DNA from: Alphaproteobacteria bacterium
GTDB lineage: Bacteria > Pseudomonadota > Alphaproteobacteria > Rhizobiales > JAKIUO01
DNA length: 51,001 nucleotides
Assembly (NCBI GenBank): GCA_024279115.1
Contig: JAJRRW010000116.1
Coordinates: 1-51,001, forward strand
Direction: 5' to 3'
Shown: positions 16,635 through 33,726 of the stretch, piece by piece
How the letters are laid out: each line of letters opens with the position of its first letter
Position numbering within the stretch: the first letter of the stretch is position 1
Position numbers and translations under genes: made by a program
The notes under the pieces: model-generated
What the model was told of the DNA's origin: nothing
Seen by the model: only the letters and a program-made list of their open reading frames with translations
Databases searched by the model: none

Positions 16635-16637
16635 TGT

Positions 16638-16755
16638 CCTCGCCGGGGGGCAGCTTGTTCAGCTGGAACCAAAGGCGAGCCTTTGGAAACCATTTGATCA
16701 AGGGTTTGGGGACTAGTCCCCAATGCCGGCCGCACAGGCTGCCCGCCCGGCGAGG
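16638..16755. repeat. MITE-like repeat, copy A (g2/metY gap)
   Basis: A 118-base element bounded by the perfect 10-bp inverted repeat CCTCGCCGGG...CCCGGCGAGG. It contains CAGCTTGTTCAGCTG (16651-16665) near one end and the perfect 18-base palindrome TTGGGGACTAGTCCCCAA. Related copies lie at 21812-22028 and 28260-28379 in the opposite orientation. It fills the convergent gap between g2 and metY. No target-site duplication was clear. Confidence 0.7.
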
Positions 16756-16776
16756 GGCGAGCGCCGATAGGCGCTT

Positions 16777-18069: not shown

Positions 18070-18189
18070 GATGGGTGCTCTTTTGTTGTTTCTACCTCGT
18101 TTTAATCTGACGCATCTGCCAGTGCAGCGCAAATATTTTATCTGTTGAGGGTTTTCACGAGGCGTTTTTCGAATTGGAGTTCACACTTA

Positions 18190-19362: not shown

Positions 19363-19363
19363 T

Positions 19364-19421
19364 AAAAAAACTTTTCGTCATCGCCGGGGCGCAAAATTGC
19401 TGATCCGGAAATGACGAAAAG
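19364..19421 (-). terminator. Intrinsic terminator for the antisense small gene
   Basis: A perfect 11-bp inverted repeat (CTTTTCGTCAT at 19371-19381 and ATGACGAAAAG at 19411-19421) with an inner CCGG pairing is followed, reading on the minus strand, by seven Ts (19364-19370). It lies 19 bases beyond the stop of the small minus-strand gene and just after the portal stop. Confidence 0.75.
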
Positions 19422-19439
19422 GAGTGGCAAAGGTCTGAC

Positions 19440-19649
19440 TTACTTTTCTTCCATCATATCAATGAATTTTTTCCAGGTGAGTCCTTTGCCGTTTGTTTTG
19501 TCTGTTTTCCCCTTGCACCATATGAGTTTTGTATTGGTTACAAAAAGTTTTCCGAGATACTTTCCTTTGGGTTCTCTAACTTCAAACTCGGTGCCGTTTG
19601 AGCCAACATTTAAATCTTTTACATTAAGCTCTTTGATACTCAGTTTCAT
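19440..19649 (-). CDS. Small protein inserted antisense between g3 and g4
   Basis: A 69-residue basic protein: 'MKLSIKELNVKDLNVGSNG', then 'FEVREPKGKYLGKLFVTNTK' and 'LIWCKGKTDKTNGKGLTWKK', ending 'FIDMMEEK'. The text resembles short uncharacterised bacterial proteins that share a 'GKLxVTxTKLIWCxGKTxxxNG' pattern (from memory). ATG 19649 is preferred; a TTG nine codons earlier is possible. The gene is visibly more AT-rich than its neighbours, is antisense to the GTA genes and carries its own terminator, so it looks like a self-contained insertion at the place where some GTA clusters have the small g3.5 gene. Its function is unknown. Confidence 0.55.
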   Translation of the reverse strand: MKLSIKELNVKDLNVGSNGTEFEVREPKGKYLGKLFVTNTKLIWCKGKTDKTNGKGLTWKKFIDMMEEK

Positions 19650-19893
19650 TTCGTATGTCCCGTTCTGTTTCGTCAAAGTTGTACAAAGTTTGTTGATTGC
19701 CCACGCACACTAGAAAAACTCTTTGTGCAAATCAATACCAGGTGAATATACAGCCACAGCCCTGTGGACTTTATCGGTTTTGCCGTTCGCAGCCAAGCGA
19801 TGCGTGGAGTTGAAATTAACGTCGAAAATGCCCGAGGCTTGAAACGCTCGCCCTTGTGACTTCATTCATTTTCTCAAGCAGTATTGGAACATC

Positions 19894-20568
19894 ATGAACG
19901 CAACTGACCAATGGTCGGTGTGCGAACGAAAGTTCGCGCCCCTTGATTTCAAAAGCATAAACCAGGATGGCAGCTTTGAAGGCTATGCCAGTCTGTTTGG
20001 GCAAAAGGATATGGGCGGTGATATCGTTGCAAAAGGAGCTTTTGCAGCGAGCCTTGAAAAACGGGGGGCTGGCGGTATTCGCATGTTGTTTCAGCATGAC
20101 CCGAGCGAACCCATCGGCGTCTGGCGTAAAATTATCGAAGATGCGCGCGGCCTGTTTGTGCGCGGCCAGCTATTGCCACAGGTCGCCAAGTCGAGAGAAA
20201 TTCTGGCACTGATGCGCGAGGGCGCGCTGGATGGTCTGTCGATCGGTTTTCGCACGGTGCGCGGCAAGTCTGACCGCAAGAACAGCACGCGCCAGCTTTT
20301 GGAAGTCGATCTGTGGGAGATCTCCATTGTGACCTTTCCCATGTTGCCACAAGCAAGGATCAGCAGCGTCAAGAGCGGGGCGTTACCTACGATGAGAGAA
20401 TTTGAGCGCTGGCTCGTGCGGGATGCCGGGTTTACGCGCTCCAATGCCAGGGCGGTGATTTGCTCTGGATTTAAAAACCTTGCCAGCAAGCGGGACGCTG
20501 CCGGTGAACAAAATGTGCAGCTGGCGAGCGCCATGCGTCGCGCAGCTAAGATGATGAAAAGGAATTGA
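19894..20568 (+). CDS. HK97-type prohead protease (GTA g4)
   Basis: A 224-residue prohead protease (HK97/U35 family) that cleaves the capsid delta domain during head maturation. The N-terminal 'FEGYASLFGQKDMGGDIVAK' is followed by 'LFQHDPSEPIG' (probable catalytic His68), 'GALDGLSIGFR' (probable Ser116) and 'LWEISIVTFPM'. The C-terminal tail (about 55 residues, 'MREFERWLVRDAGFTRSNAR') matches the scaffold-like extension seen in GTA g4 proteins. It precedes the capsid gene by one base, the usual protease-capsid pairing. It is intact. The 244 bases before it hold no recognisable gene, only a small CCACAG...CTGTGG palindrome. Confidence 0.92.
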   Translation: MNATDQWSVCERKFAPLDFKSINQDGSFEGYASLFGQKDMGGDIVAKGAFAASLEKRGAGGIRMLFQHDPSEPIGVWRKIIEDARGLFVRGQLLPQVAKSREILALMREGALDGLSIGFRTVRGKSDRKNSTRQLLEVDLWEISIVTFPMLPQARISSVKSGALPTMREFERWLVRDAGFTRSNARAVICSGFKNLASKRDAAGEQNVQLASAMRRAAKMMKRN

Positions 20569-20569
20569 A

Positions 20570-21786
20570 ATGACAGACTATGAAGACAAGGCGGCACCCG
20601 GTACGGATGTGGCGGGGGCGTTTGATGAGTTCATGCATGCTTTTGAAGAGTTTAAAAGCACCAATGATGAGCGGCTTGAACAGGTTGAAAAACGGGTCAG
20701 CGCCGATGTGGTGACCGAGGAAAAACTGGCCCGTCTCAACAAGACAATGGATCAAATCGTTGCAAAGTCGGTGCGTCCACCACTTGCCGGGGGAGCGCCA
20801 AATTCTGTTGCCGGCCTGCAGCACAAATCGGCCTTTGAAACCTATATGCGCAAGGGAGAGGCGGGCAATCTGCGCGCCCTGGAAAAAAGGCCCTGTCCGT
20901 TGGATCAGATCCAGATGGTGGCTACCTGGTGCCAAGCGAGACCGAAAATGCCGTGATGCGCTCGCTCAAGGATATTTCCCCCATTCGCGCCATTGCTGGT
21001 ATTCGCCAGGTCTCTGGCACCAGTTTCAAGAAACCGTTTTCCATCTCGGGACCAGGAACCGGCTGGGTAGGGGAAAGCGCCGCGCGCCCCGAAACCACCT
21101 CGCCAAGTCTGGCGGAGCTGACGTTTCCAACCATGGAGCTGTACGCCATGCCAGCCGCGACCTCGACCCTGCTCGATGATGCGGCGGTCAATGTGGATGA
21201 ATGGATCGCCGAAGAAGTGCGTATCGCCTTTGCCCAGCAGGAAGGCACGGCCTTTGTGTCAGGTGATGGTATCAACAAGCCAAAAGGATTTTTATCCTAT
21301 GCAAGGGTCGCCAATAGCAGTTGGACCTGGGGCAATCTTGGCTATGTGGCAACTGGTGTGAGCGGAGGCTTTGCGGCCACCGATCCGTCGGATAATCTCA
21401 TTGACCTTATATATAGTGTCAAATCCGGGTATCGCGGCAATGCTCATTGGGTGATGAACCGCTCAACCCAGGCGCAGATACGCAAAATCAAGGATGTGGA
21501 CGGCAACTATATCTGGCAACCAGGTACGCGGCTTGGCGAGGCCCCCACCTTGATGCACTTCCCGATCACCGAAAGTGAAGATATGCCAGATATCGCCGCC
21601 GACAGCGCGTCCATTGCGTTTGGTGATTTTGGCCGCGGCTATCTCATTGTCGATCGTATCGGTCTGCGGGTGCTGCGAGACCCTTACAGCTCCAAACCCT
21701 ATGTGTTGTTCTATACCACCAAGCGTGTGGGCGGCGGCGTGCAGGACTTTGAGGCGATCAAGCTGATGAAGTTCGGAATTAGTTAG
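20570..21786 (+). pseudogene. GTA major capsid protein (g5), one-base frameshift
   Basis: An HK97-fold capsid protein, RcGTA g5 type. The first frame gives the coiled delta domain ('FMHAFEEFKSTNDERLEQVE' and following) and the start of the capsid domain, up to 'GNLRALEK'. The rest ('SETENAVMRSLKDISPIRAI' to 'DFEAIKLMKFGIS') lies in the -1 frame. At the joint the sequence has six As (20883-20888). A seventh A would restore 'ALEKKALSVGSDPDGGYLVP', the expected family text, and a protein of about 405 residues. So a one-base deletion in a homopolymer is the simplest reading, either real or a sequencing slip. A programmed -1 shift is less likely, as the heptamer A AAA AGG is not a good slippery site. 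Confidence 0.88.
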
Positions 21787-21811
21787 GTTTAAGCACCTTT
21801 CAAAAGCAAGC

Positions 21812-22028
21812 CCTCGCCGGGCAGGCATCTTTGCAGATGGCATTGGGGAGCAGTCCCTACAGGCGCTAAGGTACGGCCAAACCTGCTTCGCAATCGGGGG
21901 GCTTCCCCCGAATGGGTTTGGGCAATAGCCCATTCGCGCAGCGAGGGGGCACTTAAGTTAGCGCCTATGGGGGCAGTCCCCAAATCCTGGTCTTTGCTTT
22001 CAGCTGAACAAGCTGCCGCCCGGCGAGG
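21812..22028. repeat. MITE-like repeat, copy B (g5/g6 gap)
   Basis: A 217-base element with the same perfect terminal inverted repeat as copy A (CCTCGCCGGG...CCCGGCGAGG), inverted relative to it. CAGCTGAACAAGCTG lies at 22001-22015. It is longer than copy A and holds several G/C-rich hairpins, for example GGGGGGCTTCCCCC and ATGGGGGCAGTCCCCA. It sits between capsid and adaptor genes. Confidence 0.7.
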
Positions 22029-22062
22029 GCATAGTTCCAATTACCCGCTTGCGGGTGATAAA

Positions 22063-22113
22063 GGGGAAGCGGGGGTGTTCCCTCCCTGCCACGCTCGCTT
22101 CCCCCGTTTTTTT
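22063..22113 (+). terminator. Intrinsic terminator between g5 and g6
   Basis: GGGGAAGCG (22063-22071) pairs with CGCTTCCCC (22096-22104), followed by CG and seven Ts. An alternative pairing CGGGGG/CCCCCG competes with it. It is preceded by another hairpin, ACCCGC-tt-GCGGGT. Transcription from the head genes would be expected to stop or pause here, 36 bases before g6. Confidence 0.75.
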
Positions 22114-22148
22114 GTGAAGACTTTTAAGTGAATTTGAAGGAATGTATC

Positions 22149-22727
22149 ATGGCGCTTGTTTTGGCAAATGGCCCCGCACTGGAACCTGTCTCGCTGGAGG
22201 AGGTCAAGGCGCATTTGCGGATTGATCACACGGATGAGGATGTATTGCTGGCCGCGCTTGTCACTGCGGGGCGTATTCATCTGGAAACCACGCTTGGTCT
22301 GTCATTTTTGACACAGCAATGGATACTGGTGCTGGACCAGTGGCCAGCGCAGCAAAGCGTCTCCTTGCCGCTTGGACCCGTGCAGCAAATTACCGCTATC
22401 ACTCTTTATGATGAGGATGATCAGGCCAGCGCGATTGATAGCTCCAGCTATGCCCTTGACGCGATTTCGCAGCCTTCCCGGGTGGTATGGCGCGCCAGTA
22501 TATCAAGGCCGAGGCCGGGGCGTGCTTATAATGGCATCGAGATTTCCCTGACGACGGGTTTTGGCTCAAATGCTGTTGATGTGCCGCAACCTTTGCGTCA
22601 GGCGATTTTATTATTGGTCGCTCATTGGTATGAAAACCGTGAGCCTGTTGCTCTGGCCACTGAGATCAAGGAGGTCCCGCAAATGGTTTCCATGCTTACC
22701 AATTCTTATCGGAGGGTGCGTCTATGA
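22149..22727 (+). CDS. GTA head-tail adaptor (g6)
   Basis: A 192-residue connector protein (phage gp6-like/HK97 gp6 family, TIGR02215-type). Its opening 'EPVSLEEVKAHLRIDHTDED' and 'LLAALVTAGRIHLETTLG' are typical, followed by a beta-rich middle ('LPLGPVQQITAITLYDE') and a final helix ('QAILLLVAHWYENREPVA'). It corresponds to RcGTA g6, which forms the adaptor ring below the portal. ATG 22149 follows 'gaagga'; an upstream in-frame GTG lacks support. The stop overlaps g7 by four bases (ATGA), which indicates coupling. Confidence 0.85.
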   Translation: MALVLANGPALEPVSLEEVKAHLRIDHTDEDVLLAALVTAGRIHLETTLGLSFLTQQWILVLDQWPAQQSVSLPLGPVQQITAITLYDEDDQASAIDSSSYALDAISQPSRVVWRASISRPRPGRAYNGIEISLTTGFGSNAVDVPQPLRQAILLLVAHWYENREPVALATEIKEVPQMVSMLTNSYRRVRL

Positions 22728-23053
22728 GTATGATGAACCCGGGTGCCTTGCGCCACAGGGTGGCCTTGGAAAGTGCCACCAAAACCAGCGATGGCGGGGG
22801 AGGTTCCATACTTGTCTGGGAACAAGTGGCCCTGTTGTGGGTGGCGATCAAACCGCTGTCCGGGCGAGAGCTGTTGTCTGCCGGGCAATTTGCCTCGCGC
22901 CTCACCCATCAAATAACATTGAGATACCGAACATCTGTGCTGCCCGAGATGCGCTTTCGTAAAGACAATCGTGTTTTCCAGATCAAGGCCGTCCTTGATG
23001 TGGAAGAGCGGCGGCGCTGGTTGCGCGCTCTTTGTGAAGAACGGGAGCTATAG
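22724..23053 (+). CDS. GTA head closure/stopper protein (g7)
   Basis: A 109-residue head-closure protein (SPP1 gp16-like, phage head-tail adaptor family). Landmarks are the opening 'GALRHRVALESATKTSDGGG', then 'LVWEQVALLWVAIKPLSGRE', 'SHRITLRYR'-type text here as 'LTHQITLRYR', and 'RVFQIKAVLDVEERRRWL', all typical of the beta-barrel stopper. In RcGTA g7 it closes the head after packaging and joins the tail. It starts within the g6 stop (ATGA overlap). It ends two bases before the next gene. Confidence 0.85.
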   Translation: MSMMNPGALRHRVALESATKTSDGGGGSILVWEQVALLWVAIKPLSGRELLSAGQFASRLTHQITLRYRTSVLPEMRFRKDNRVFQIKAVLDVEERRRWLRALCEEREL

Positions 23054-23055
23054 GT

Positions 23056-23448
23056 ATGAAGACATCGCCAGAATCACTCAAATCATCGCTGGAAAATAAT
23101 TTTGTGGAAAAATTCGAGCGCATTTCCTTTGATCGTGAAATGCGACTGATTGCCGAGCAATTGCGAGATCAAGCGCGCCAGGAGCTTAAGTATGATGGGT
23201 TTATGTGTGAGAATAAACAAAGGCTTATGGACTCTATCAAGGTCGTCCCCGGGTCAAAAAAAGACGAATATCTGGTGATCAGCGAGGGAGATTATGGCAA
23301 AGATTTGGAATTTGGTACGAGGAATTCCCTTGAAAAGCCTTGGTTCACCCCTGCTTTCGTCACGGTCACCAGATCAATTGGTAACTGTCTTCAAGGGGCA
23401 CTCAAACGAGCACTCCAGAAGGCAAGACGGCTTCACATTCGCAGGTGA
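23056..23448 (+). CDS. HK97 gp10-like minor head-tail protein
   Basis: A 130-residue protein. The N-terminal half is helical ('LKSSLENNFVEKFERISFDR', then 'MRLIAEQLRDQARQEL'). The C-terminal part, 'VISEGDYGKDLEFGTRNSLE' followed by 'KPWFTPAFVTVTRSI', has the 'E-x-G-T-x(n)-P-x-F-x-P-A' pattern of HK97 gp10-family (tail completion / neck) proteins. RcGTA has no such gene between g7 and g8, so this is an extra component relative to the reference cluster, at the place where true siphophages carry gp10. The gene follows g7 by two bases. The assignment rests on pattern and position. Confidence 0.65.
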   Translation: MKTSPESLKSSLENNFVEKFERISFDREMRLIAEQLRDQARQELKYDGFMCENKQRLMDSIKVVPGSKKDEYLVISEGDYGKDLEFGTRNSLEKPWFTPAFVTVTRSIGNCLQGALKRALQKARRLHIRR

Positions 23449-23603
23449 AATCAAGTCCCGCGGTCATCTGTGTTGTGTGGGCCGTCACATATAATCCGCC
23501 CCGATAGTATCAGGGGATAAGGCGTTTTGATTTGTGTCAGTTGTACCTCCCAGTTTTGTTGTTTCTATTTGTAAAGTTGCTCAATAGTTGTTGGAGTTAA
23601 GTC

Positions 23604-24017
23604 ATGAGTGAGAGTGCCAGTTGGTTGTTGCAAAAGAGTTTGGTGCAAGCGTTAAAGTCCGATGTTGCGTTGGTTGCCTTATTGAGTGGTGAAAGAGTTT
23701 ATGACAGCGTCCCCCAGCGCGCCGCCTATCCATTTGTGTCGATTGGCAATGCGGTCGATCGAGACTGGAGTACCAGTAGTGAGAGTGGTTTCGAGCATGC
23801 CCTGATCCTGCATGTCTGGTCAAAGGGCAAGGGTAAAAAGCAGTGCTTTGAGATTATGAATGCAGTTCGGCGTGTGTTGCATGATGGTGCGTTGGTTGTT
23901 GAAGGTCATGAGTTGGTAAATTTGCGTTTTGAGTTTTCAGATGCCCGTCTTGATCCAGATGGTGAGGCCTATCACGGCATCTTGCGTTTTCGAGCTGTTA
24001 CCGAAGTTGCTGCGTAG
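23604..24017 (+). CDS. GTA tail terminator (g8, DUF3168)
   Basis: A 137-residue DUF3168 protein. Landmarks are 'LQKSLVQALKSDVALVALLS', 'RVYDSVPQRAAYPFVSIGNA', 'EHALILHVWSKGKGKKQCFE' and the end 'HGILRFRAVTEV'. DUF3168 proteins form the tail terminator ring that ends tail-tube polymerisation and joins it to the head. The order matches RcGTA g8. A gap of 155 bases precedes it, with the hairpin CCCCGAT-agt-ATCaGGGG, and 'ttggagttaagtc' gives the ribosome binding site. The 5' half uses many TTG/GTT codons and looks lower in GC than neighbouring GTA genes. Confidence 0.85.
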   Translation: MSESASWLLQKSLVQALKSDVALVALLSGERVYDSVPQRAAYPFVSIGNAVDRDWSTSSESGFEHALILHVWSKGKGKKQCFEIMNAVRRVLHDGALVVEGHELVNLRFEFSDARLDPDGEAYHGILRFRAVTEVAA

Positions 24018-24363
24018 AGTTTTGTGAGTAGCGAGTAAGTATCCGAGTTGTTTGACGTGTATGCCCCCCGCGAATATAATAATTTGATCCGGGCCTGTTC
24101 TTCCTGTTCGTTCCAGATGGCAAGCTGAAGGCCCTGGTGACCTGGTAGTGCGTTGTAGCGAGTAAGAGTAAAGAGTAGTTGCAAGTTTTTGTTGTGCGTA
24201 TGAGTGAATTGAGTAGTTGCAGTTTGTTGCCGCGTTGAGTTCTCAAAAACGTTATTTTACCTCTCGTTTATGAGGGATGAAAATGTTGAGCGTTATAAAG
24301 GTTTGCGTCTTGCTTCGTATCGCTGGTTTGCGTATTGACTGAACGAAGAATTGATCTTGTGAA

Positions 24364-24385
24364 CGGGTAAAATCAACCCGGTTTT
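24364..24385 (+). terminator. Terminator-like hairpin 1 between g8 and g9
   Basis: CGGGT (24364-24368) pairs with ACCCG (24376-24380) around a seven-base loop; GTTTTT follows. The stem is short, and this is the weakest of the three hairpins. Confidence 0.45.
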
Positions 24386-24399
24386 TGAGCAGAGTTATG

Positions 24400-24427
24400 A
24401 AACGGTCCCTCAGTCAGGGGCCGTTTT
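24400..24427 (+). terminator. Terminator-like hairpin 2 between g8 and g9
   Basis: AAACGGTCCC pairs with GGGGCCGTTT (one T-G wobble) around the loop TCAGTCA; four Ts overlap and end the stem. The strength is moderate. Confidence 0.55.
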
Positions 24428-24451
24428 GTGTTTGGTGGTCTGAGTTTTTTC

Positions 24452-24477
24452 AAGGGTCCCTTTTGGGGACCCTTTTT
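24452..24477 (+). terminator. Strong intrinsic terminator 3 between g8 and g9
   Basis: A nine-base perfect stem (AAGGGTCCC with GGGACCCTT) around a five-base loop is followed by five Ts. It is the clearest of three consecutive hairpins and would separate the g1-g8 and g9-g15 transcripts. Confidence 0.75.
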
Positions 24478-24616
24478 GTTTGCAAAATATCCAAAATAGC
24501 GCTTCGGCAGGGCCGCCGAGATGATTTGGGATGGCCGCTAGACAATCGTGTGCGCTCGCGCGCTTCAAGCAATAGTATGAAGCGCCGGGCATGAGTGAAG
24601 CAAAAGGAGACGTTTG

Positions 24617-25030
24617 ATGGTTGCACAAAAGGGCAAGGATCTGTTGTTGAAGGTTGATGATGACGGGCTCGGCAGCTTTGTAACAATGGCGGGGTTGCGA
24701 GCCAAAAGCCTCTCATTCAACGCCGGTACGGTCGATATCACCCATACTGAATCGGTTGGCCAATGGCGCGAACTGCTGGCGGGAGCCGGTATCAAGAGCG
24801 CCAGGGTCACAGGTTCTGGCGTATTCAAAGATGCGGCAAGCGATGAACGGGCCCGCCAGCTGTTTTTTGATGGCATCATCACAGACTGGCAAATCATTGT
24901 TCCAGATTTTGGCACGATCTCGGGGGCCTTCCAGATTACTGCACTCGAATTCTCCGGCAATCATGACAATGAAGTGAGTTTTGAGCTGGGACTGGAATCA
25001 GCGGGCGCTCTTGCTTTCGTTGCGGTTTAA
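24617..25030 (+). CDS. GTA major tail tube protein (g9)
   Basis: A 137-residue major tail protein of the TP901-1/RcGTA g9 family. Landmarks are 'MVAQKGKDLLLKVDD' (start), 'LRAKSLSFNAGTVDITHTES', 'WRELLAGAGIKSARVTGSGV' and 'FELGLESAGAL' at the end. The protein stacks into the hexameric tail tube. 'aaaaggagacg' is a strong ribosome binding site for ATG 24617. It lies downstream of three terminator-like hairpins, so it may have its own promoter. Confidence 0.92.
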   Translation: MVAQKGKDLLLKVDDDGLGSFVTMAGLRAKSLSFNAGTVDITHTESVGQWRELLAGAGIKSARVTGSGVFKDAASDERARQLFFDGIITDWQIIVPDFGTISGAFQITALEFSGNHDNEVSFELGLESAGALAFVAV

Positions 25031-25072
25031 AAGGTTTCTCTAAAGTTCATTTAAAACCAGAAGGATAACATA

Positions 25073-25441
25073 GTGGTCAACAGGTATCGCGGTGAAATCA
25101 GTGCCGAATTTGATGGCATCAAGCAGACGCTTTGTCTGACGCTTGGGGCGCTTGCCGAACTCGAAGAAGCGTTTGGTGAGCAGGATTTATTGTCGCTTGC
25201 CGAGCGGTTTGCATCGGGGCGGATCACCTCCAGTGACGCCATGCATATTCTGGGGGCGGGGTTGCGCGGCGCTGGTCATACGATCTCTGACGAGGAGGTC
25301 GGCAAGCTGAAAGTCGATGGGGGCGCGGCTGGCTATATCTCGGTTGTGGCAAGGCTGTTGACCGCCACTTTTGGCGATGACAAGCAACAATCCGCGCAAG
25401 GAACAGATAAAAGAGGCGCGCCCAGCAAGCCGGGAAAGTAA
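25073..25441 (+). CDS. GTA tail-tube assembly chaperone (g10)
   Basis: A 122-residue GTA_gp10 family protein. Landmarks are 'NRYRGEISAEFDGIKQTLCL', 'TLGALAELEEAFGEQDLLSL', 'FASGRITSSDAMHILGAGLR' and a disordered C-terminal tail. It corresponds to RcGTA g10, a tail assembly chaperone. The GTG start has 'gaagga' upstream. The stop at 25439-25441 slightly overlaps, in another frame, the sequence encoding the N-terminal motif of g10.1. Confidence 0.88.
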   Translation: MVNRYRGEISAEFDGIKQTLCLTLGALAELEEAFGEQDLLSLAERFASGRITSSDAMHILGAGLRGAGHTISDEEVGKLKVDGGAAGYISVVARLLTATFGDDKQQSAQGTDKRGAPSKPGK

Positions 25442-25479
25442 CTGATGCCAGTGCTCCGCAACCATTTCCCTGGAAGCGC

Positions 25480-25668
25480 GTGATGTCAATCGGGCTTGGG
25501 CTGTTGCAATTTCCCCCCGAGCATTTCTGGTCGATGACCATTCCCGAGCTGCAAGCGGCGATGAGCGGCAGCTTTGGCGATGGGGCAATGGCGGCACCCC
25601 TTGCTCGCAAAGAACTTGATGAGCTGATGCGCCGTTTTCCAGATGAAGGAGAGACAATAAATGTTTGA
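25480..25668 (+). CDS. GTA tail assembly chaperone g10.1 (DUF2376/TAC type)
   Basis: About 62 residues from GTG 25480, or 61 from ATG 25483 ('ggaag' upstream). 'GLGLLQFPPEHFWSMTIPEL' and 'RKELDELMRRFPDE' match the small tail-assembly chaperone between g10 and g11 in RcGTA-like clusters. Homologues usually begin with a 'PFPW' motif. Here that motif is encoded in the same frame just upstream ('APQPFPWKRVMSIG'), but no ATG, GTG or TTG precedes it after the stop at 25408. The N-terminus is either shortened or initiated at a rare codon or by coupling with g10. Confidence 0.78.
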   Translation: MMSIGLGLLQFPPEHFWSMTIPELQAAMSGSFGDGAMAAPLARKELDELMRRFPDEGETINV

Positions 25669-26224
25669 TGAAGTTGCCGGACTGACGGTTCGGATCAATG
25701 CCGACACGTCGCAATTCAATAGCGGACTAAAGGAAGCGGCACAGTTGGGGGCGCAGTTCTCGCGCTCTATCTCGTCGGCTTTTGAGGATGCCATTTTCAA
25801 GGGCAAGGACCTGGGCGAAGTGTTTCGTTCCCTGGCACTTGATCTGTCAAAAATGGTGTTCAAATCGGCGTTCAAACCCTTGGAACAAGCGGTAGGCGGC
25901 GCTTTTACGCAACTGTTTAGCGGTTGTGGCGCTGCTGGCGGAGCCCCAAGCCTGTTTGCCAAGGGCGGCGTTGTGGCCGCGCCAACGGCGTTTTCGTTCG
26001 GCAATGGTCAAGCGGAGATTGCCGGCGAAGCGGGGCCCGAAGCAATATTGCCGCTGATGCGCGGCGCCGATGGTCGCCTTGGTGTGCGCCAGTCGGGCGG
26101 TGGGCGAAACATCACGGTCAATTTCAATGTCTCGACACCAGATGTTGACGGCTTCAAACGGTCGCAGACGCAGATCAATGCCATGCTCAACCGGGCGGTG
26201 GCGCGCGGAGAAAGGAATCTCTAG
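25661..26224 (+). CDS. GTA tail tape measure protein (g11)
   Basis: A 187-residue tape measure protein, very short compared with phage tape measures and typical of RcGTA-type particles with a short tail. Landmarks are 'LTVRINADTSQFNSGLKEAA', 'EDAIFKGKDLGEVFRSLALD' and a hydrophobic/glycine stretch. It ends with 'SLFAKGGVVAAPTAF' and 'GEAGPEAILPLMRGADGRLG', a signature found at the C-terminus of many tape measure proteins. It overlaps the g10.1 stop by eight bases and has 'gaaggagag' as ribosome binding site. Confidence 0.9.
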   Translation: MFDEVAGLTVRINADTSQFNSGLKEAAQLGAQFSRSISSAFEDAIFKGKDLGEVFRSLALDLSKMVFKSAFKPLEQAVGGAFTQLFSGCGAAGGAPSLFAKGGVVAAPTAFSFGNGQAEIAGEAGPEAILPLMRGADGRLGVRQSGGGRNITVNFNVSTPDVDGFKRSQTQINAMLNRAVARGERNL

Positions 26225-26227
26225 ATC

Positions 26228-26866
26228 ATGAATTTTCACGAGGTGCGTTTTCCCACCAGCATTTCCCATGGCTCGATGTCCGGCACGCAGCGCCGCACGC
26301 AAATTGTCGTGCTGGGTTCCGGGCGCGAAGAGCGCAATAGCAATTGGGCCGATAGTCGGCGTCTTTATAATGCGGGTTATGGCATCAAGACACTGGATGA
26401 CCTTTATGAGGTGATGGAATTTTACGAAGAGCGCCGAGGTCGTTTGCATGGGTTTCGCTGGAAAGACCGGCTCGACTACAAGAGCTGCAAACCCTCCAAG
26501 ACCCCGCAGCCGACCGATCAGGTGCTGGGCACGGGAGATGGCGCACAGGTATCGTTTCAACTTTCCAAAACCTATGGCGGCGCCTTTTCTGCGTGGCAAC
26601 GCGATATTACAAAACCCGTGACAGGAAGTGTGCGCCTTGCGGTCAATGGCATTGAACAGACCGAAATCAGTGATTTTACCGTCGATGCCTTGAGTGGAGA
26701 GGTCTTGTTTAAAAGCGGCTCGGTGCCAGCCATTGGGGCGCTCATCACGGCGGGCTTCGAGTTTGATGTGCCGGTGCGTTTTGATGAAGACACGCTGGAA
26801 ATCAATCTCGAACATTTCGACGCTGGACAGGTGCCTGGCATCGCTATCCGTGAAATCCGCGTTTAA
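26228..26866 (+). CDS. GTA distal tail protein (g12, DUF2460/TIGR02217)
   Basis: A 212-residue DUF2460 protein. Landmarks are 'FHEVRFPTSISHGSMSGTQR', 'GREERNSNWADSRRLYNAGY', 'FYEERRGRLHGFRWKDRLDY' and the C-terminal 'GFEFDVPVRFDEDTLEINLE'. It forms the distal tail ring that connects tube and baseplate (RcGTA g12). It starts three bases after g11. The gene is intact and of normal length. Confidence 0.94.
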   Translation: MNFHEVRFPTSISHGSMSGTQRRTQIVVLGSGREERNSNWADSRRLYNAGYGIKTLDDLYEVMEFYEERRGRLHGFRWKDRLDYKSCKPSKTPQPTDQVLGTGDGAQVSFQLSKTYGGAFSAWQRDITKPVTGSVRLAVNGIEQTEISDFTVDALSGEVLFKSGSVPAIGALITAGFEFDVPVRFDEDTLEINLEHFDAGQVPGIAIREIRV

Positions 26867-26880
26867 AAAGAAAGCCTTTC

Positions 26881-27780
26881 ATGAAACAATTACCTCAAGG
26901 GATGCAAGCGCATCTTGATAGCGGCGCAACAACCCTTTGCTGGTGTTGGCGTCTCACCCGTCTGGACGGGGTCAGCTATGGTTTCACCGATCACGACCGC
27001 AATCTGACATTTGACGACACGCTCTATGAAGCCGCCAGTGGATTTTCGGCCAGCGAGCTGTCCGCCGGGATTGGCCTGTCCACGGACAATCTGGAAGCGG
27101 AGGGGGCGCTTTCATCTGACAAGCTCAACGAGGACGAACTGGCGCAGGGGCGCTTTGATGACGCGCAAGTGGAAATCTTTCGCGTCAACTGGTCGGATCC
27201 GGCCCAGCGGGTACTGATGAGTTCTGGCAGTCTTGGCGAGGTCAAGCGGGGCGAGAACAGTTTTAGCGCCGAGGTGCGCGGGCTTGCTCATTACTTGCAG
27301 CAACCCAAGGGGCGGTTGGTGCAATATGGCTGTGATGCGGCGCTTGGTGATGCGCGTTGCGGCATTGATGTGGGGGGTGGCAGCTCTTTTCGCGTCAGCG
27401 GCTCGGTTGTCGATGTGCAATCAAAACATGCCTTTACGGTATCTGGTCTGGAGGGTTTTGCATCGGGCTGGTTCGCGCGTGGAAATCTCATCTGGCAAAG
27501 CGGGGCCAATGCGCCGGGCCGCATGGAGATCAAGCAGCACAGGATCCTCGAGAACGGAAATGTGTTTATTGAGCTGTGGCAGGATATGGCCTTTGCCATC
27601 ACCTCAGGCGAGACCTTTGCTGCCATCGCTGGTTGTGACAAGCAGTTTTCGAGCTGCCGGGACAAGTTTTCCAATCACGTCAATTTCAGGGGCTTTCCCC
27701 ATGTGCCCGGCAATGACTTCATCGTCTCTTATCCAGGCCGCGATGATGCCAGCAATGATGGCCAGAGTTTTAGTCAGTAG
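26881..27780 (+). CDS. GTA baseplate hub (g13, DUF2163/BR0599 type)
   Basis: A 299-residue protein, RcGTA g13 type. The N-terminal DUF2163 region has 'TLCWCWRLTRLDGVSYGFTD'-like text with 'GFTDHDRNLTFDD'. It is followed by 'LEAEGALSSDKLNEDELAQG', and the C-terminal BR0599 domain has 'DKQFSSCRDKFSNHVNFRGF' and 'PHVPGND'. Four cysteines in the pattern 'GCDAALGDARCG' and 'GCDKQFSSCRDKF' match the set that, in the RcGTA hub structure, holds an iron-sulfur cluster (from memory). A cluster is likely here too. The gene is intact. Confidence 0.93.
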   Translation: MKQLPQGMQAHLDSGATTLCWCWRLTRLDGVSYGFTDHDRNLTFDDTLYEAASGFSASELSAGIGLSTDNLEAEGALSSDKLNEDELAQGRFDDAQVEIFRVNWSDPAQRVLMSSGSLGEVKRGENSFSAEVRGLAHYLQQPKGRLVQYGCDAALGDARCGIDVGGGSSFRVSGSVVDVQSKHAFTVSGLEGFASGWFARGNLIWQSGANAPGRMEIKQHRILENGNVFIELWQDMAFAITSGETFAAIAGCDKQFSSCRDKFSNHVNFRGFPHVPGNDFIVSYPGRDDASNDGQSFSQ

Positions 27781-27807
27781 GAATTTTAGCCAATTAGAGA
27801 CCAGATC

Positions 27808-28242
27808 ATGAGTATCACACGAAAAAAAATTGTAGCGGTGGCGACAAGCTGGATCGGTACACCGTATCACCATCAGGCCAGCGTCAAGGGCATTGGTGCT
27901 GATTGCCTTGGGCTGGTGCGCGGTGTGTATCGCGAACTGTACGGGCAAGAAGCGGAAGCGCCTCCGGCCTATTCCCCGGACTGGGCGGAAGCCAGCGGGA
28001 TGGAGACCATGCTGAAGGCGGCGACCAGGCACCTTGACAGACAATCCCTTGAGAGCATGGCGTCTGGTGATGTGATTGTTTTTCGTTTACGTCCCAGCAT
28101 GGTTGCCAAGCACGCCGCGATTGTCAGCGGACCCCAGCACATGGTCCATGCCACCGAAGGAGCGCCGGTCTGTGAGGTGGTTTTGTCGGGCTGGTGGCGT
28201 CGGCATATCGCGGGCGTTTTTTCATTTCCAGGTGTTGATTAA
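27808..28242 (+). CDS. GTA NlpC/P60-type cell wall peptidase (g14)
   Basis: A 144-residue NlpC/P60 cysteine peptidase. Opening 'VATSWIGTPYHHQASVKGIG' is followed by 'ADCLGLVRGVYREL' with catalytic Cys33, 'SGDVIVFRL' and 'MVAKHAAIVS' with His102. The family domain is complete. In RcGTA the g14 protein is mounted in the baseplate and cleaves peptidoglycan of the recipient during DNA entry. It starts 27 bases after g13 and ends just before repeat copy C. Confidence 0.92.
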   Translation: MSITRKKIVAVATSWIGTPYHHQASVKGIGADCLGLVRGVYRELYGQEAEAPPAYSPDWAEASGMETMLKAATRHLDRQSLESMASGDVIVFRLRPSMVAKHAAIVSGPQHMVHATEGAPVCEVVLSGWWRRHIAGVFSFPGVD

Positions 28243-28259
28243 GCCGCTTGGAGCGGTTA

Positions 28260-28379
28260 CGCTTGCCAGATTGGCCTGCTGGGCGCGTGGTGTTGGCGAC
28301 TTGCCCCAAACCCTGGATAAAGGGGGGCGCGGGGGATCATCCCTTGGTGCCAGCTGCATAAGCTGCCACGCGGCAAGCG
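28260..28379. repeat. MITE-like repeat, copy C (g14/g15 gap)
   Basis: A 120-base element bounded by CGCTTGCC (28260-28267) and GGCAAGCG (28372-28379). It contains CAGCTGCATAAGCTG (28351-28365) and, on the minus strand, AGGGTTTGGGG, which is also found in copy A. It is a diverged member of the family at 16638 and 21812, in the same orientation as copy B. Confidence 0.6.
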
Positions 28380-28420
28380 CATTTTGGCAACGATCTTTCA
28401 AAATTTTGAGGACAGTATTT

Positions 28421-31400
28421 ATGGCGACCCTTGTTTTAGCAACGGCTGGCGCGGCGGTTGGCGGCGCTCTTTTACCCGCTGGCGTCGGCCTGCTGGGGGC
28501 GACCCTTTCTGGTGCCGTGATCGGTCGCGCCATTGGTTCGCTTGCCGGGCGCTATATCGATCAGGCTTTGTTTGGAGCCAGCGGACAGAACAAGATTGTC
28601 GAGAATACGGGCGCGCGACTTGCTGATTTACAGGTGGTCTCTTCTTCCGAAGGCTCTCCTGTTCCGCGTATTTTCGGGCGCGCCCGGCTCGGCGGTCAGG
28701 TTATCTGGGCAACGCGTTTTGAGGAGGAAGTCATTCGTGACAGCAAGACGGTCAAGTCCTCCAGCAAAGGTATTGGCGGTGGCCCGAGCCAGACGACTAT
28801 CACCACCAGCTATCAATATTACGCCAATTTCGCGATTGTGCTTTGCGAAGGTGAAATCTCGCGATTGGGACGCGTCTGGGCGGATGGCAAAGAAATCAAT
28901 CTTGCTCAATATACCTATCGGCTGTATCGCGGTGACGAAACGCAACTACCGGACAGTTTGCTGGAAGCCAAGGAGGGGGCGAACAATGCCCCGGCCTATC
29001 GCGGTCTGGCCTATATTGTGTTTGAGCGCTTGCCGCTGGACCTATTTGGCAATCGTATTCCGCAGTTCAATTTCGAAGTGTTTAAGGCCCTTGATGATGT
29101 GGAGCAAAAGATCACCGCTGTGACCATGATCCCGGCATCAGGGGAGTTTGCTTATGAAGTAGAGCCGGTGGAGCGTGATGCGGGCAAGGGGGAAACCACG
29201 TCTGAAAATACCCATCATCAGATGGGGGGGACAGACTGGTCTTTGTCGATGGATCAATTGCGCGACATGATGCCAAATTGTGGCTCCGTCTCCTTGTTCG
29301 TCAGCTGGTTTGGCAGCGATTTGCGCGCTGATCAGTGTTTTGTCAAACCCGGTGTTGAAAATCGCCAGAAGGTCACCACACCCTATAGCTGGAAAGTGGC
29401 CGGGCTTGGCCGCTTGACCGCCTATGAAATATCAAAAAATGACGAGCGGCCGGTATTTGGTGGCACGCCCGGCGACCGCTCGGTCATCGCCGCCATAACC
29501 GATCTCAAGGCGCGCGGCATGAATGTCTGTTTCAATCCGTTTCTATTGCTCGATATTCAGGGTGATAATGTGCTCCCAGATCCCTATGGCGGCCCCAATC
29601 AGCCAGCTTTCCCGTGGCGTGGACGCATTACCTGTGACCCAGCGCCAGGGCAGCTTGGCAGTCCTGATAAATCGGCGGCCGCCAGCACGCAGCTCTCAAG
29701 TTTCATTGGCACCTGCGCGGTCACTGATTTCGATATTTCGACAGGAGAAGTGGTTTATAGCGGTCCTGTTGAGTGGAGCTGGCGACGCATGATTTTGCAT
29801 TATGCGCATTTGTGCAAGCTGGCGGGGGGTGTTGATGCGTTTTTGCTGGGCTCTGAATTGCGCGGCCTGACGCAGGTGCGCGATGGCGCCTCTTCCTACC
29901 CCTTTGTCAACGCTCTCCTTCAGTTGGCAGCCGATGTCAAAGCCGTGCTTGGCGCGGCCACCAAGGTGAGTTATGCCGCTGACTGGTCTGAATATTACGG
30001 TCATCAGCCCGCGGATGGCAGCAATGATGTGTGGTTCCATCTCGACCCTTTGTGGTCGAGCCCTTACATTGATATGATCGCCATGGATTGCTATTGGCCG
30101 CTGGCCGACTGGCGCGATGAGGATACTCATCTGGATGCTGGCAATGGTACTTTATCCATTTATGATCCGGCCTATCTCAAAGGCAATATTGCTGGCGGCG
30201 AGGGCTATGACTGGTATTATGCCACGCAGGCAGACCGCGATAGCCAGACCCGCACACCGATCACCGATGGGGCGGGGAAGCCATGGGTATTTCGCTATAA
30301 AGATATTGCCAGCTGGTGGAGCCAACCGCATTTTGACCGCCCCGGCGGCGTCGAATCCTCGTCCGCGACAAGCTGGCTTCCGCAATCAAACCCTTTCTGG
30401 TTGATGGAAGTTGGTTGCCCGGCCATCGACAAGGGGGCCAATGAGCCCAATGTCTTTTACGATGGTAAAAGTTCCGAAAGCGGCTTTCCCAGATATTCCA
30501 ACGGGACCAGAGATGACACGATACAGCGGCGGTATCTACAAAGCTTCTACGAATATTATGACGAGGCGCATGAGGGTTTTAGCGAAACCGATAACCCTCA
30601 ATCCAGTGTCTATACGGGGCGTATGGTCGATGCGACAAAAATCTACGCCTATACGTGGGATGCGCGCCCCTTTCCAGCGTTTCCATTCGATTTGGAAACC
30701 TGGTCGGATGGTAAAAACTGGTTTCTGGGTCACTGGTTGAATGGCCGTATGGCTGGCGGACCATTGCAAGCTGTGGTCGAAGGGGTTTTACGCGAGTATG
30801 ATTTTGACCGCTATGACCTGACCCCCTTGGATGGCATGATGGAAGGCTATATTCTTGATGGCGTGATGTCGGCGCGCGATGCCCTGCAACCCCTTGAGAT
30901 GGCATTTTTTCTCGACAGTTTCGAAAGCGGTGGATCCATTCGTTTTTCCCATAAGGGGCAGGGCGGCGTGAGCTTGTCTGTTGCGCGCTCGCAACTTGTT
31001 GAAGCCAGTGAAAATGCGGATCTCTATAGCCTGACCCGCGCCCAAGAAACCGATTTGCCGCTGTCCGCCAAGCTCACCTATATCGACGGTGTGGTCGATT
31101 ATCGTCAGGCCGTTGTCGAGGCACGGCGGGATAATGTCGCCACCAATCGCGTCGCAACGGCGCAGCTTCCCATCGTGCTTGGGCAAGAGCAGGCGCAAGG
31201 CATCGCTGACAGTTGGTTGCACGATGTGTGGAGCGGTCGCGAGAAGGCCGTCTTTTCTTTGCCGCCCTCAAATCTTGCGGTCGAACCTGGAGATGTGCTG
31301 CGCCTTGCCATCAAGGATCGGGAGATAGATCTGCGTGTGTCGCAAACAGCAACAGCCGAAGCGCGGTCTATCGAAAGCTTGTCCCTGCAGCCGCATATTT

Positions 31401-32395
31401 ATAAAATGCCGGTGGCTCCAAGCCGTGCGGGTGTGGCGACCGGTGGCAAGATTTTTGGGCCTTCCCTCGCGGTGTTTCTCGACCTTCCCTTGTTGCGCGG
31501 CGATGAAGGGGCGTCAAACGGCTATATTGCAAGTTATCAATCGCCGTGGCCCGGAGCGGTCAGTTTTTTCTCGTCGCCAACCGGTAGCGGTTATGGGCTG
31601 GCTGCGGGCGCCAATGTTCCTGCCCTCATGGGGGAGACGGCGAGTTCTTTGGCCAGCGGACCATCGGCTCGCTGGGATTGGGGCAATAGTGTTGATGTGA
31701 TCATCTATAATGGGGAGCTCTTGTCGCGCGAGGGGGAGGATGTGCTGTCAGGTGCCAATCTGGCAGCTATCGAGCACGCGGGCGGTGAATGGGAAGTCAT
31801 GCAGTTTCAAACCGCGCAATTGATCGGCGACAAGACTTATCGCCTGAGTGGTTTGTTGCGCGGCCAGGGGGGCAGCGAGCCACATATAAGTACAGACCTT
31901 CTGGCGGGCGCGCGCTTTATTATTCTGGATGATGCCGTGACCCCTGTTGAGCTGACAGATGATCAAATCGGATTGGACTATAGCTGGAAGGTTGGTCCAG
32001 CTCCCTATGATCTGGGGCACAGATCCTACCGGACCTATCAAAAGGCCTTTGTCGGGCTTGGTCATAAACCCTTTGCGCCCGTGCATCTGCGCGCGGTGCC
32101 AGGGATAGCTGGGGACATATATCTGAGTTGGACCCGGCGGACCAGGTCGGGCGGTGATAGCTGGGCGTCGATCGAGGTGCCTCTGTTTGAAGACAGCGAA
32201 GCCTATGAGGTTGATATATTGGAGAACGGCATTGTGCGGCGCACCCTCGCCAGCTCCGGCAGTTCGATCACTTACACCAGTGCTCAGCAAACAATGGATT
32301 TTGGTCAGTTGCAAACCAGCCTTGACGTGGCGGTCTATCAAATGAGCGCGCGCACCGGGCGTGGTCATCAGGCCATGACAACGCTCCAGCTTTAA
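28421..32395 (+). CDS. GTA baseplate multidomain protein ('megatron', g15)
   Basis: A 1324-residue protein, the largest GTA component. The N-terminus is alanine/glycine-rich and hydrophobic ('ATAGAAVGGALLPAGVGLLG'). It is followed by 'SSEGSPVPRIFGRARLGGQV', a long GTA TIM-barrel-like region ('DAFLLGSELRGL', 'KVSYAADWSEYYGH', 'IAMDCYWPLADWRD', 'WLMEVGCPAIDKG') and a phage-tail-type C-terminal half ('LSKTGRGG'-like repeats are absent; 'RLSGLLRGQGGSEPH' and a fibronectin-like end are present). It forms the baseplate tip that contacts the recipient. ATG 28421 has 'gaggacag' upstream and gives the family start; the frame runs upstream into g14 and repeat C without meaning. The gene is intact. Confidence 0.95.
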   Translation: MATLVLATAGAAVGGALLPAGVGLLGATLSGAVIGRAIGSLAGRYIDQALFGASGQNKIVENTGARLADLQVVSSSEGSPVPRIFGRARLGGQVIWATRFEEEVIRDSKTVKSSSKGIGGGPSQTTITTSYQYYANFAIVLCEGEISRLGRVWADGKEINLAQYTYRLYRGDETQLPDSLLEAKEGANNAPAYRGLAYIVFERLPLDLFGNRIPQFNFEVFKALDDVEQKITAVTMIPASGEFAYEVEPVERDAGKGETTSENTHHQMGGTDWSLSMDQLRDMMPNCGSVSLFVSWFGSDLRADQCFVKPGVENRQKVTTPYSWKVAGLGRLTAYEISKNDERPVFGGTPGDRSVIAAITDLKARGMNVCFNPFLLLDIQGDNVLPDPYGGPNQPAFPWRGRITCDPAPGQLGSPDKSAAASTQLSSFIGTCAVTDFDISTGEVVYSGPVEWSWRRMILHYAHLCKLAGGVDAFLLGSELRGLTQVRDGASSYPFVNALLQLAADVKAVLGAATKVSYAADWSEYYGHQPADGSNDVWFHLDPLWSSPYIDMIAMDCYWPLADWRDEDTHLDAGNGTLSIYDPAYLKGNIAGGEGYDWYYATQADRDSQTRTPITDGAGKPWVFRYKDIASWWSQPHFDRPGGVESSSATSWLPQSNPFWLMEVGCPAIDKGANEPNVFYDGKSSESGFPRYSNGTRDDTIQRRYLQSFYEYYDEAHEGFSETDNPQSSVYTGRMVDATKIYAYTWDARPFPAFPFDLETWSDGKNWFLGHWLNGRMAGGPLQAVVEGVLREYDFDRYDLTPLDGMMEGYILDGVMSARDALQPLEMAFFLDSFESGGSIRFSHKGQGGVSLSVARSQLVEASENADLYSLTRAQETDLPLSAKLTYIDGVVDYRQAVVEARRDNVATNRVATAQLPIVLGQEQAQGIADSWLHDVWSGREKAVFSLPPSNLAVEPGDVLRLAIKDREIDLRVSQTATAEARSIESLSLQPHIYKMPVAPSRAGVATGGKIFGPSLAVFLDLPLLRGDEGASNGYIASYQSPWPGAVSFFSSPTGSGYGLAAGANVPALMGETASSLASGPSARWDWGNSVDVIIYNGELLSREGEDVLSGANLAAIEHAGGEWEVMQFQTAQLIGDKTYRLSGLLRGQGGSEPHISTDLLAGARFIILDDAVTPVELTDDQIGLDYSWKVGPAPYDLGHRSYRTYQKAFVGLGHKPFAPVHLRAVPGIAGDIYLSWTRRTRSGGDSWASIEVPLFEDSEAYEVDILENGIVRRTLASSGSSITYTSAQQTMDFGQLQTSLDVAVYQMSARTGRGHQAMTTLQL

Positions 32396-32414: not shown

Positions 32415-32597
32415 ATGAAACACTTTTTCACGGCCCAGGAACAAGATGCAATCATTGCCGGGGGATTGATCAGCTCTCCCGCCTGGGCGAGCTGGCTGTC
32501 CGATGTCAACCTGGTGTTGACGACGATCACTTTGGTATTGGGGGCAGTTCTTGGCGCCACGAGACTTTGGCGGGCCTATATACGCAGCAAGCCCTGA
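32415..32597 (+). CDS. Small one-helix membrane protein, possible holin
   Basis: A 60-residue protein. A polar N-terminus (KHFFTAQEQDAIIAGG) precedes one hydrophobic segment (VNLVLTTITLVLGAVLGATR) and a short basic tail (RAYIRSKP). Size, topology and position immediately before the endolysin gene suggest a holin or lysis-associated membrane protein. It begins 19 bases after g15 with 'agaaaggaacct' as ribosome binding site, so it is coupled to the baseplate gene. No family can be named with certainty. Confidence 0.6.
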   Translation: MKHFFTAQEQDAIIAGGLISSPAWASWLSDVNLVLTTITLVLGAVLGATRLWRAYIRSKP

Positions 32598-32620: not shown

Positions 32621-32641
32621 CCGCCTTCTGGCGGTTTTTTT
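32621..32641 (+). terminator. Intrinsic terminator between the small membrane gene and the endolysin
   Basis: CCGCC-TTCT-GGCGG is followed by seven Ts, a compact strong terminator 23 bases after the stop of the 60-residue membrane protein. It lies just ahead of the endolysin ribosome binding site. Confidence 0.8.
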
Positions 32642-32661
32642 GTGTTCGAAAGGATCAGTAT

Positions 32662-33726
32662 TTGCGCGATCTGTTTTTATTGACCTATGAGGAGTTGCGC
32701 CGGCTTAGTCCTGGAGGCAAGAGTGAAATCCTCAAGGGGGTGGCGGCCCATTCCTCTATTCTGGCGGCCTATGGCATTACGGCAAACCAGCTGCGTGTGT
32801 GTCATTTTCTGGCTCAGGCTGCGCATGAGACCGGGGGCTTTCGCACCCTGGTGGAATATGGCAGTACCCGATATTTCCGGCGGCGTTATGGTCACCGGCG
32901 TGATCTGGGCAATGTCAGATTGTCAGATGGTTCGAGATATCGGGGGCGGGGCATATTTCAACTGACCGGGCGCGCCAATTACCGCCGTTTTGGACAGCTT
33001 TTGGGCGTTGATCTGGAGGCATTTCCGCTGCGCGCACAAAAGCCCGAGCTGTCTTTACGGATCGCTTGCGAATATTGGCAGCGCCATGGTCTCAACAGGT
33101 TTGCGGACCGCAATGATATCCGCGCCATCACCAAACGAATAAATGGCGGCTATAACGGCCTGCAGGACCGGCGGCGCTATTTAAGGCGCACCATGGCGAT
33201 CTGGAAGCCCCGCGCCAGGTCCGTTGTCGATCCACACTTTTTGCAATTTGGTGATCGCGGCAAGCAAGTCGCGCGCTTGCAATTGCTGTTGCGGGCCACA
33301 GGGCGGCGTATTGCCGTTGATGGACTGTTTGGTCACCAGACATTGCGGCGGCTAAAAGCTTTTCAAGCGGGACATGGCTTGCGTGCCGATGGCCTGTATG
33401 GCCGACGATCAAGGCGTGTGCTGATGCGTATCAGCTCGCAAACGAGCCAGACAAAACCACTTGATACCACGACCCCCCATTCAACCAACCCCAAGGAGAC
33501 AATAATGAATCAATGGAAAAGCTATCTTTCGAGCCGGACAATATGGGCCAATCTCATCGGCCTTGGCGCTCTGGCACTCGATGTTTTGGGTTTTAACGGC
33601 TTTAGCGCGGAGGAGAAGTCTCAACTTGTCGATCAGGTGCTCAAGTTGGTGGAAGCAGGTGGATTTATCGCTGGTGTGTTGTTTAGAGCGCTTGCCCGCA
33701 ACCGACTGGGGCCAGCAATGTTTTAG
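32662..33726 (+). CDS. GH19-type endolysin with peptidoglycan-binding domain, fused in frame to a holin-like segment
   Basis: About 354 residues from TTG 32662, with 'aaagga' upstream; no ATG fits. Residues 1-190 are a GH19 chitinase-like lysozyme domain: 'LRVCHFLAQAAHETGGFRTL' with probable catalytic Glu56, 'YRGRGIFQLTGRANYRRF', 'ACEYWQRHGLNRFAD' and 'ITKRINGGYNGLQDRRRYL'. Residues about 195-255 are a PG_binding_1 repeat ('FGDRGKQVARLQLLLRATGR', 'VDGLFGHQTLRRLKAFQAGH'). A linker rich in Thr, Ser and Pro leads, without a stop codon, into a 73-residue two-helix membrane segment that has its own Shine-Dalgarno and ATG at 33505. The endolysin stop seems to have been lost or replaced by read-through into the next gene. 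Confidence 0.8.
   Translation: MRDLFLLTYEELRRLSPGGKSEILKGVAAHSSILAAYGITANQLRVCHFLAQAAHETGGFRTLVEYGSTRYFRRRYGHRRDLGNVRLSDGSRYRGRGIFQLTGRANYRRFGQLLGVDLEAFPLRAQKPELSLRIACEYWQRHGLNRFADRNDIRAITKRINGGYNGLQDRRRYLRRTMAIWKPRARSVVDPHFLQFGDRGKQVARLQLLLRATGRRIAVDGLFGHQTLRRLKAFQAGHGLRADGLYGRRSRRVLMRISSQTSQTKPLDTTTPHSTNPKETIMNQWKSYLSSRTIWANLIGLGALALDVLGFNGFSAEEKSQLVDQVLKLVEAGGFIAGVLFRALARNRLGPAMF
33505..33726 (+). CDS. Holin-like two-helix membrane protein, nested in-frame start
   Basis: Read from ATG 33505, this is a 73-residue protein with two hydrophobic helices (TIWANLIGLGALALDVLGF and LVEAGGFIAGVLFRALA) and a polar hairpin (SAEEKSQLVDQ) between them. Small phage proteins of the same layout (start 'MxxxLSSRTIWANLIGLxALAL', end basic) sit next to endolysin genes. 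The start is backed by a near-perfect ribosome binding site, AAGGAG, six bases before the ATG. The same codons also form the C-terminus of the endolysin frame, so both a fusion and a free form can be made. Confidence 0.65.
   Translation: MNQWKSYLSSRTIWANLIGLGALALDVLGFNGFSAEEKSQLVDQVLKLVEAGGFIAGVLFRALARNRLGPAMF

Follow-up and report, generated by a model that had tools for sequence, protein, structure and literature searches.

Layout of the lysis locus

The window analysed here is a stretch of 51,001 nucleotides of alphaproteobacterial DNA (contig JAJRRW010000116.1, assembly GCA_024279115.1). Behind a gene transfer agent (GTA) cluster on its forward strand, a single open frame without internal stop runs from a TTG codon to the TAG at 33724-33726, and encodes an endolysin, a linker and a small membrane module in this order (Table 1).

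Table 1. Coordinates of the fused gene, its parts and the neighbouring features in the window
Feature	Position	Strand	Remarks
RcGTA-like cluster	15243..32395	+	terminase, portal, prohead protease, capsid, head-tail connector, tail completion, DUF2460, hub, NlpC/P60, GTA_TIM tail protein; Pfam matches
60-aa protein	32415..32597	+	one hydrophobic helix (residues ~28-50, hydropathy); between last tail gene and terminator
Intrinsic-terminator-like hairpin	32621..32641	+	CCGCC-TTCT-GGCGG then T7; just 5' of lysis gene
Shine-Dalgarno of enzyme start	32649..32654	+	AAAGGA; read directly
Fused lysis gene (endolysin, linker, membrane hairpin)	32662..33726	+	TTG start, 354 aa
GH19 catalytic domain	32764..33084	+	Pfam stretch, residues 35-141; PF00182, E 1.5e-7
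PG_binding_1 domain	33256..33411	+	PF01471, E 5.8e-8, above Pfam curated cut-off
Linker, 27 codons	33424..33504	+	near-neutral amino acid sequence, frame kept open
Internal Shine-Dalgarno	33493..33498	+	AAGGAG, six bases 5' of ATG 33505; AGGA kept in 5/5 species
Holin-like module, 73 aa	33505..33726	+	own ATG, residue 282 onwards; two-helix membrane hairpin, predicted N-in/C-in

The GH19 domain scored 31.9 bits with PF00182, for which the curated cut-off is 25.5, and PHROG 181 (endolysin) matched residues 18-187 of the fused product with an E-value of 2e-54. The residues H55, E56 and T57 (HET motif) and E65 of this domain were invariant in the five species of the genus. All five also carry TTG at the position of the start codon, and in-frame stops lie close upstream in two of them (TAG in L005, TGA in L006); position 32662 is therefore well founded as the start. 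The first-pass annotation, made from the sequence alone, had described an open frame leading from a GH19 and PG-binding endolysin into a 73-residue two-helix module, with AAGGAG six bases before the ATG at 33505. Frame reading, the Pfam cut-offs and hydropathy confirmed this description. An annotation naming the enzyme domain alone would overlook the membrane part of the gene.

Analysis of hydropathy revealed no N-terminal signal-arrest-release (SAR) helix in the fused product. The best 19-aa window ahead of the module had a value of 1.2 and lay at residue 23, inside the enzyme, compared with 1.6 for the module helices. The reading as a SAR endolysin was rejected because no N-terminal membrane segment precedes the module.

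The hydrophobic stretches of the module cover its residues 13-30 and 45-62. The mean net charge in 61 modules was +0.9 before the first helix, -2.4 between the helices and +2.9 after them, from which, by the positive-inside rule, both termini of the hairpin are predicted to be cytoplasmic (N-in/C-in). These modules have the shape of class II (two-helix) holins, as they are short, with two hydrophobic helices, the predicted N-in/C-in topology and a charged C terminus. The AlphaFold model of the module alone placed helices at 11-27 and 35-68 with a mean pLDDT of 70, and those of the whole fused protein, made for five sequences, had a pLDDT of 43 and were too poor to use. The best named match of the window module was PHROG 297 (holin), a weak one with an E-value of 0.011; no Pfam family was matched, nor any Pfam holin family above its cut-off. 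Other members of the family matched PHROG 34682 'holin' with E-values down to 1e-12, and also PHROG 4712 and 297. Thus, 'holin-like' is a fair label for the module, and a function as holin is what we infer from weak profile hits.

The cluster ends in the GTA_TIM tail protein, which the fused gene follows, and it contains the structural gene set of an RcGTA-like agent. This position, the main context of the gene, was not part of the first-pass annotation. The last tail gene (g15), the lysis gene, a transglycosylase, a response regulator and a kinase were found in the same order in four other species. Because this downstream flank is syntenic, the cluster is taken as a fixed chromosomal GTA and not as a passing prophage, and the fused gene is probably its lysis gene. 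A prophage was also rejected because the module is nearly absent from phages, with one match in 50,697 phage records (MW091529). The matching record (MW091529.1, L168, 'Bacteriophage sp. 103231') is an 18-kb sewage contig in which efflux genes come after a gene order resembling that of GTAs; it has the look of a chromosomal GTA contig submitted under a phage name. The module is missing from the nearest phage endolysin, that of Ochrobactrum phage POA1180. A sister species carries a second GH19 endolysin (L135, G003:C92:7378-8127), which is 46% identical and has no module in the surrounding stretch that was fetched; the fusion thus goes with the GTA copy.

The 60-aa protein upstream is kept in all five species of the genus with 59-83% identity. 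It gave no family match at an E-value of 0.05 or better in Pfam and other profile searches, and is a possible lysis partner. The terminator-like hairpin was found at the matching place in L003-L006. Its outer pair in L005 is altered on both sides (ACGCC/GGCGT) and thereby compensated, and in L006 this place, between the lysis gene and the structural genes of the GTA, holds a different hairpin with a T run. Such a terminator-like element points to control of lysis by read-through or antitermination, or to a separate promoter of the lysis gene. On the 3' side, a protein encoded at 34290-35015, named lytic-transglycosylase-like from sequence reading, lies in the same gene order in all five species, and may aid wall opening or be unrelated.

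Conservation of the fusion and of the inner start

Each of the five species of the genus has enzyme, linker and module in one open frame (62-79% identity), with no stop between the two parts, ahead of 33505. The inner AGGA and the ATG at the module were present in each species. Within the genus, dN/dS was 0.09-0.17 for the enzyme domains, 0.03-0.13 for the module and 0.4-1.3 for the linker. These values bear out the earlier impression that the linker reads like intergenic sequence. Judged by them, the choice of amino acids in the linker is of little consequence, but its reading frame stays intact throughout. Since the frame, the internal Shine-Dalgarno sequence and the ATG are all conserved, selection maintains both the fusion and the inner start. 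This conservation also backs the proposal of the first-pass annotation that one frame may yield an endolysin tethered to the membrane as well as a free holin-like protein.

Relatives were gathered by a search with the module alone, i.e., without selection for fusion. A gene was called fused when an enzyme domain lay in the same frame and no stop intervened up to the module; the length of the open frame alone was not trusted in these GC-rich genomes. As a result, 61 fused species or genes from nine families were obtained, with three enzyme types. GH19 and PGBD with the module (type a) is the architecture of the window's genus, with 5/5 species fused. GH108 with the module (type b) was found in Beijerinckiaceae, where 31 genes were fused and 5 unfused (one of the latter from a viral contig), often directly after g15. 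GH108 with the module also occurred in 25 species of seven other families (type c); all 25 were fused, and a TIGR02594 domain was in frame as well in 23 of them. More telling is that all modules of these groups that have GH108 or GH19 close upstream were fused, except in one subclade. Among more distant relatives of the module, unfused copies stand behind an enzyme in, e.g., L037, L052 and L132, and free modules with their own Shine-Dalgarno sequence lie right behind g15 in other families.

The linkers of types a and b contained no in-frame stop, versus 7 and 27 stops in the other two frames (40 fused genes, four from viral contigs), and those of type c again none, versus 14 and 21 (26 loci, one genome being counted twice). 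The total of 69 stops in the other frames is thus set against zero in-frame, a zero that is partly given by definition because open frame-0 linkers define the fused state. The tree of type b requires at least 23 changes in linker length, each by a multiple of three.

The five unfused genes (L102, L109, L121, L088, L069) formed a single supported Beijerinckiaceae subclade on the tree of type b, which includes Microvirga flavescens. The fusion was lost there via a stop or a frame change with both genes retained, and the subclade serves as a natural control on what the tether does. According to the tree, the fused state is the rule in Beijerinckiaceae and was broken, or broken and regained, in this subclade. 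Tethering is not indispensable, because these five genes do without it. Judged by its conservation, the arrangement exceeds chance: none of the five species of the genus has lost the open frame or the inner Shine-Dalgarno/ATG, and the same layout turns up again with two further enzyme types.

For the inner start, all 61 fused genes were scored: 48 have an in-frame ATG or GTG no more than 15 codons from the module, with a Shine-Dalgarno core (AGGA, GGAG or GAGG) 4-11 bases ahead, compared with 5.5% of equal windows inside the enzyme. The other 13 had no start with such a strict core at the module, and the inner Shine-Dalgarno sequence was weak or not strict in L097, L115, L116, L151 and L153-L155. 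In L119, the module codon is a TTG without Shine-Dalgarno sequence, and an ATG with AAAGGA lies 12 codons upstream. By pairing energy, binding to the anti-Shine-Dalgarno sequence was stronger here than at the controls (types a and b, p 7e-16; type c, p 2e-6; related species treated as independent). RNA structure around the inner start was weaker, with a mean of -9.2 versus -18.7 kcal/mol, a difference for which the AT-richer linkers account in part. Suppression of synonymous change at the inner start was borderline (p 0.05) and was not used as evidence. The inner-start statistics count related species as independent, and kinship was handled on the tree alone; the recurrence in three enzyme contexts is independent of a kinship correction. 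A conserved in-frame inner start with Shine-Dalgarno sequence among relatives, as in two-polypeptide endolysins, was thus found for this family.

Proposed lysis mechanism and alternative explanations

We consider it reasonably probable, from the conserved layout, that the gene gives rise to two proteins with a common C terminus, a membrane-tethered endolysin and a free holin-like hairpin; together they may also time lysis. Ribosomes starting at TTG 32662 would likely make the full-length endolysin, tail-anchored to the inner face of the cytoplasmic membrane; this side is predicted because the enzyme lacks an export signal and lies ahead of an N-in hairpin. Initiation at ATG 33505 would likely give the free hairpin, probably in excess, since ATG with AAGGAG should outcompete TTG with AAAGGA. 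With less certainty, the free hairpin would be the holin that opens the membrane, and the full-length form may enter the holin rafts through the shared hairpin and slow them like an antiholin, by analogy with the action of lambda S107 on S105. A full-length form in the raft would bring the enzyme to the site where the lesion later forms; delivery of the enzyme and opening of the membrane would then be a single event, governed by the ratio between the forms. More tentatively, and with more doubt than confidence, we suggest a single-gene holin/antiholin/endolysin system for GTAs, in which the enzyme itself would be the antiholin and the balance between two starts on the same mRNA would time lysis, with three enzyme types across Hyphomicrobiales.

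It is rather unlikely that both products are made and the tether has no task, the endolysin carrying a harmless tail and the in-frame join reflecting gene packing or translational coupling. The near-neutral linker sequence and the subclade that lives with separate genes would agree with this, but outside that subclade no linker gained a stop or a frame shift among more than 50 species with three enzyme types, though a single mutation would suffice. The module could also be a membrane anchor or regulator only, with another protein as holin, e.g., the 60-aa one-helix protein, which is kept directly upstream in all five species while the module itself has weak holin matches. We regard this as unlikely, because g15 and the enzyme gene abut in L039 and leave no room for the 60-aa protein, free modules stand alone behind g15 elsewhere, and members of the family match holin PHROGs.

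The inner ATG and Shine-Dalgarno sequence might be relics of a two-gene layout, and the fused protein alone might matter as a membrane-anchored wall hydrolase. The weak or non-strict inner sites listed above are in line with such relics; however, the Shine-Dalgarno sequence and start persist in 48 of 61 genes while the surrounding linker drifts, L119 offers a start with Shine-Dalgarno sequence upstream where the module codon has none, and the free module is retained in unfused species, which makes this explanation very improbable. A lost stop codon, which the first-pass annotation had named as its other possibility, or a sequencing error would fit a linker that resembles intergenic sequence. 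It was contradicted by the frame that is open in five species of the genus, from separate assemblies, and by 56 more distant fused genes, likewise with no stop ahead of the module. Since the frame was kept open in all five species despite the drift of the linker, a lost stop or assembly error is practically ruled out.

Relation to known lysis systems

Phage lambda (S105/S107) and phage 21 (S68/S71) have dual-start holin/antiholin pairs made from two in-frame starts. The two products proposed here would likewise be a short membrane protein and the same protein with an N-terminal extension, but the extension is 2-3 residues in those phages and a whole endolysin here. Two-polypeptide endolysins with in-frame internal starts are found in phages of Gram-positive hosts and mycobacteria (PMC9430671; CTP1L, PMC4777826; LysIME-EF1, PMC7098653). 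They share with the present gene, for which two products are predicted from the genes, the conserved inner Shine-Dalgarno sequence and start in one endolysin gene and the common C terminus. Their short product is, however, a wall-binding or second catalytic part, whereas here it would be a membrane hairpin, and the genes belong to GTAs of Gram-negative bacteria. The survey in PMC9430671 omitted phages of Gram-negative hosts, in which inner starts were considered improbable.

A natural holin-endolysin fusion, the TpeE family, was reported from six isolates of one species, Clostridium sporogenes (PMC9527704), and also joins holin and endolysin in one polypeptide. In TpeE, the holin is N-terminal, with one helix and an amphipathic helix, and was described as a fused protein only (PMC9527704), whereas here the module is C-terminal, belongs to a different family, occurs with three enzyme types and keeps an inner start. 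Lysis in GTA-producing alphaproteobacteria is the common ground with the RcGTA of R. capsulatus, in which holin and endolysin are separate proteins encoded outside the structural cluster (Westbye 2013, as cited in PMC6209664 and PMC13236601), in contrast to the single fused gene at the cluster end described here. The Caulobacter GTA is likewise a case of release of an RcGTA-like particle; its lysis requires LypABC, and no holin or endolysin homologue was found there (PMC13236601). Our literature search, with most subscription papers outside its range, found no paper describing a fused endolysin-holin gene in a GTA. The individual pieces, namely inner-start endolysins, the clostridial fusion and the lambda dual starts, are known; their combination and the link to GTAs appear to be new.

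The opening of GTA-producer cells is known for very few species, with separate genes in R. capsulatus and seemingly neither in C. crescentus (PMC13236601, PMC6209664). In the gene described here, selection binds an enzyme to a holin-like protein and yet retains a separate start from which the holin-like part could be made by itself; this layout lends itself to direct testing, as the change of a single stop or start suffices. Being one conserved gene that closes the cluster, it offers a large bacterial order a lysis mechanism in which lysis is tied to the GTA genes.
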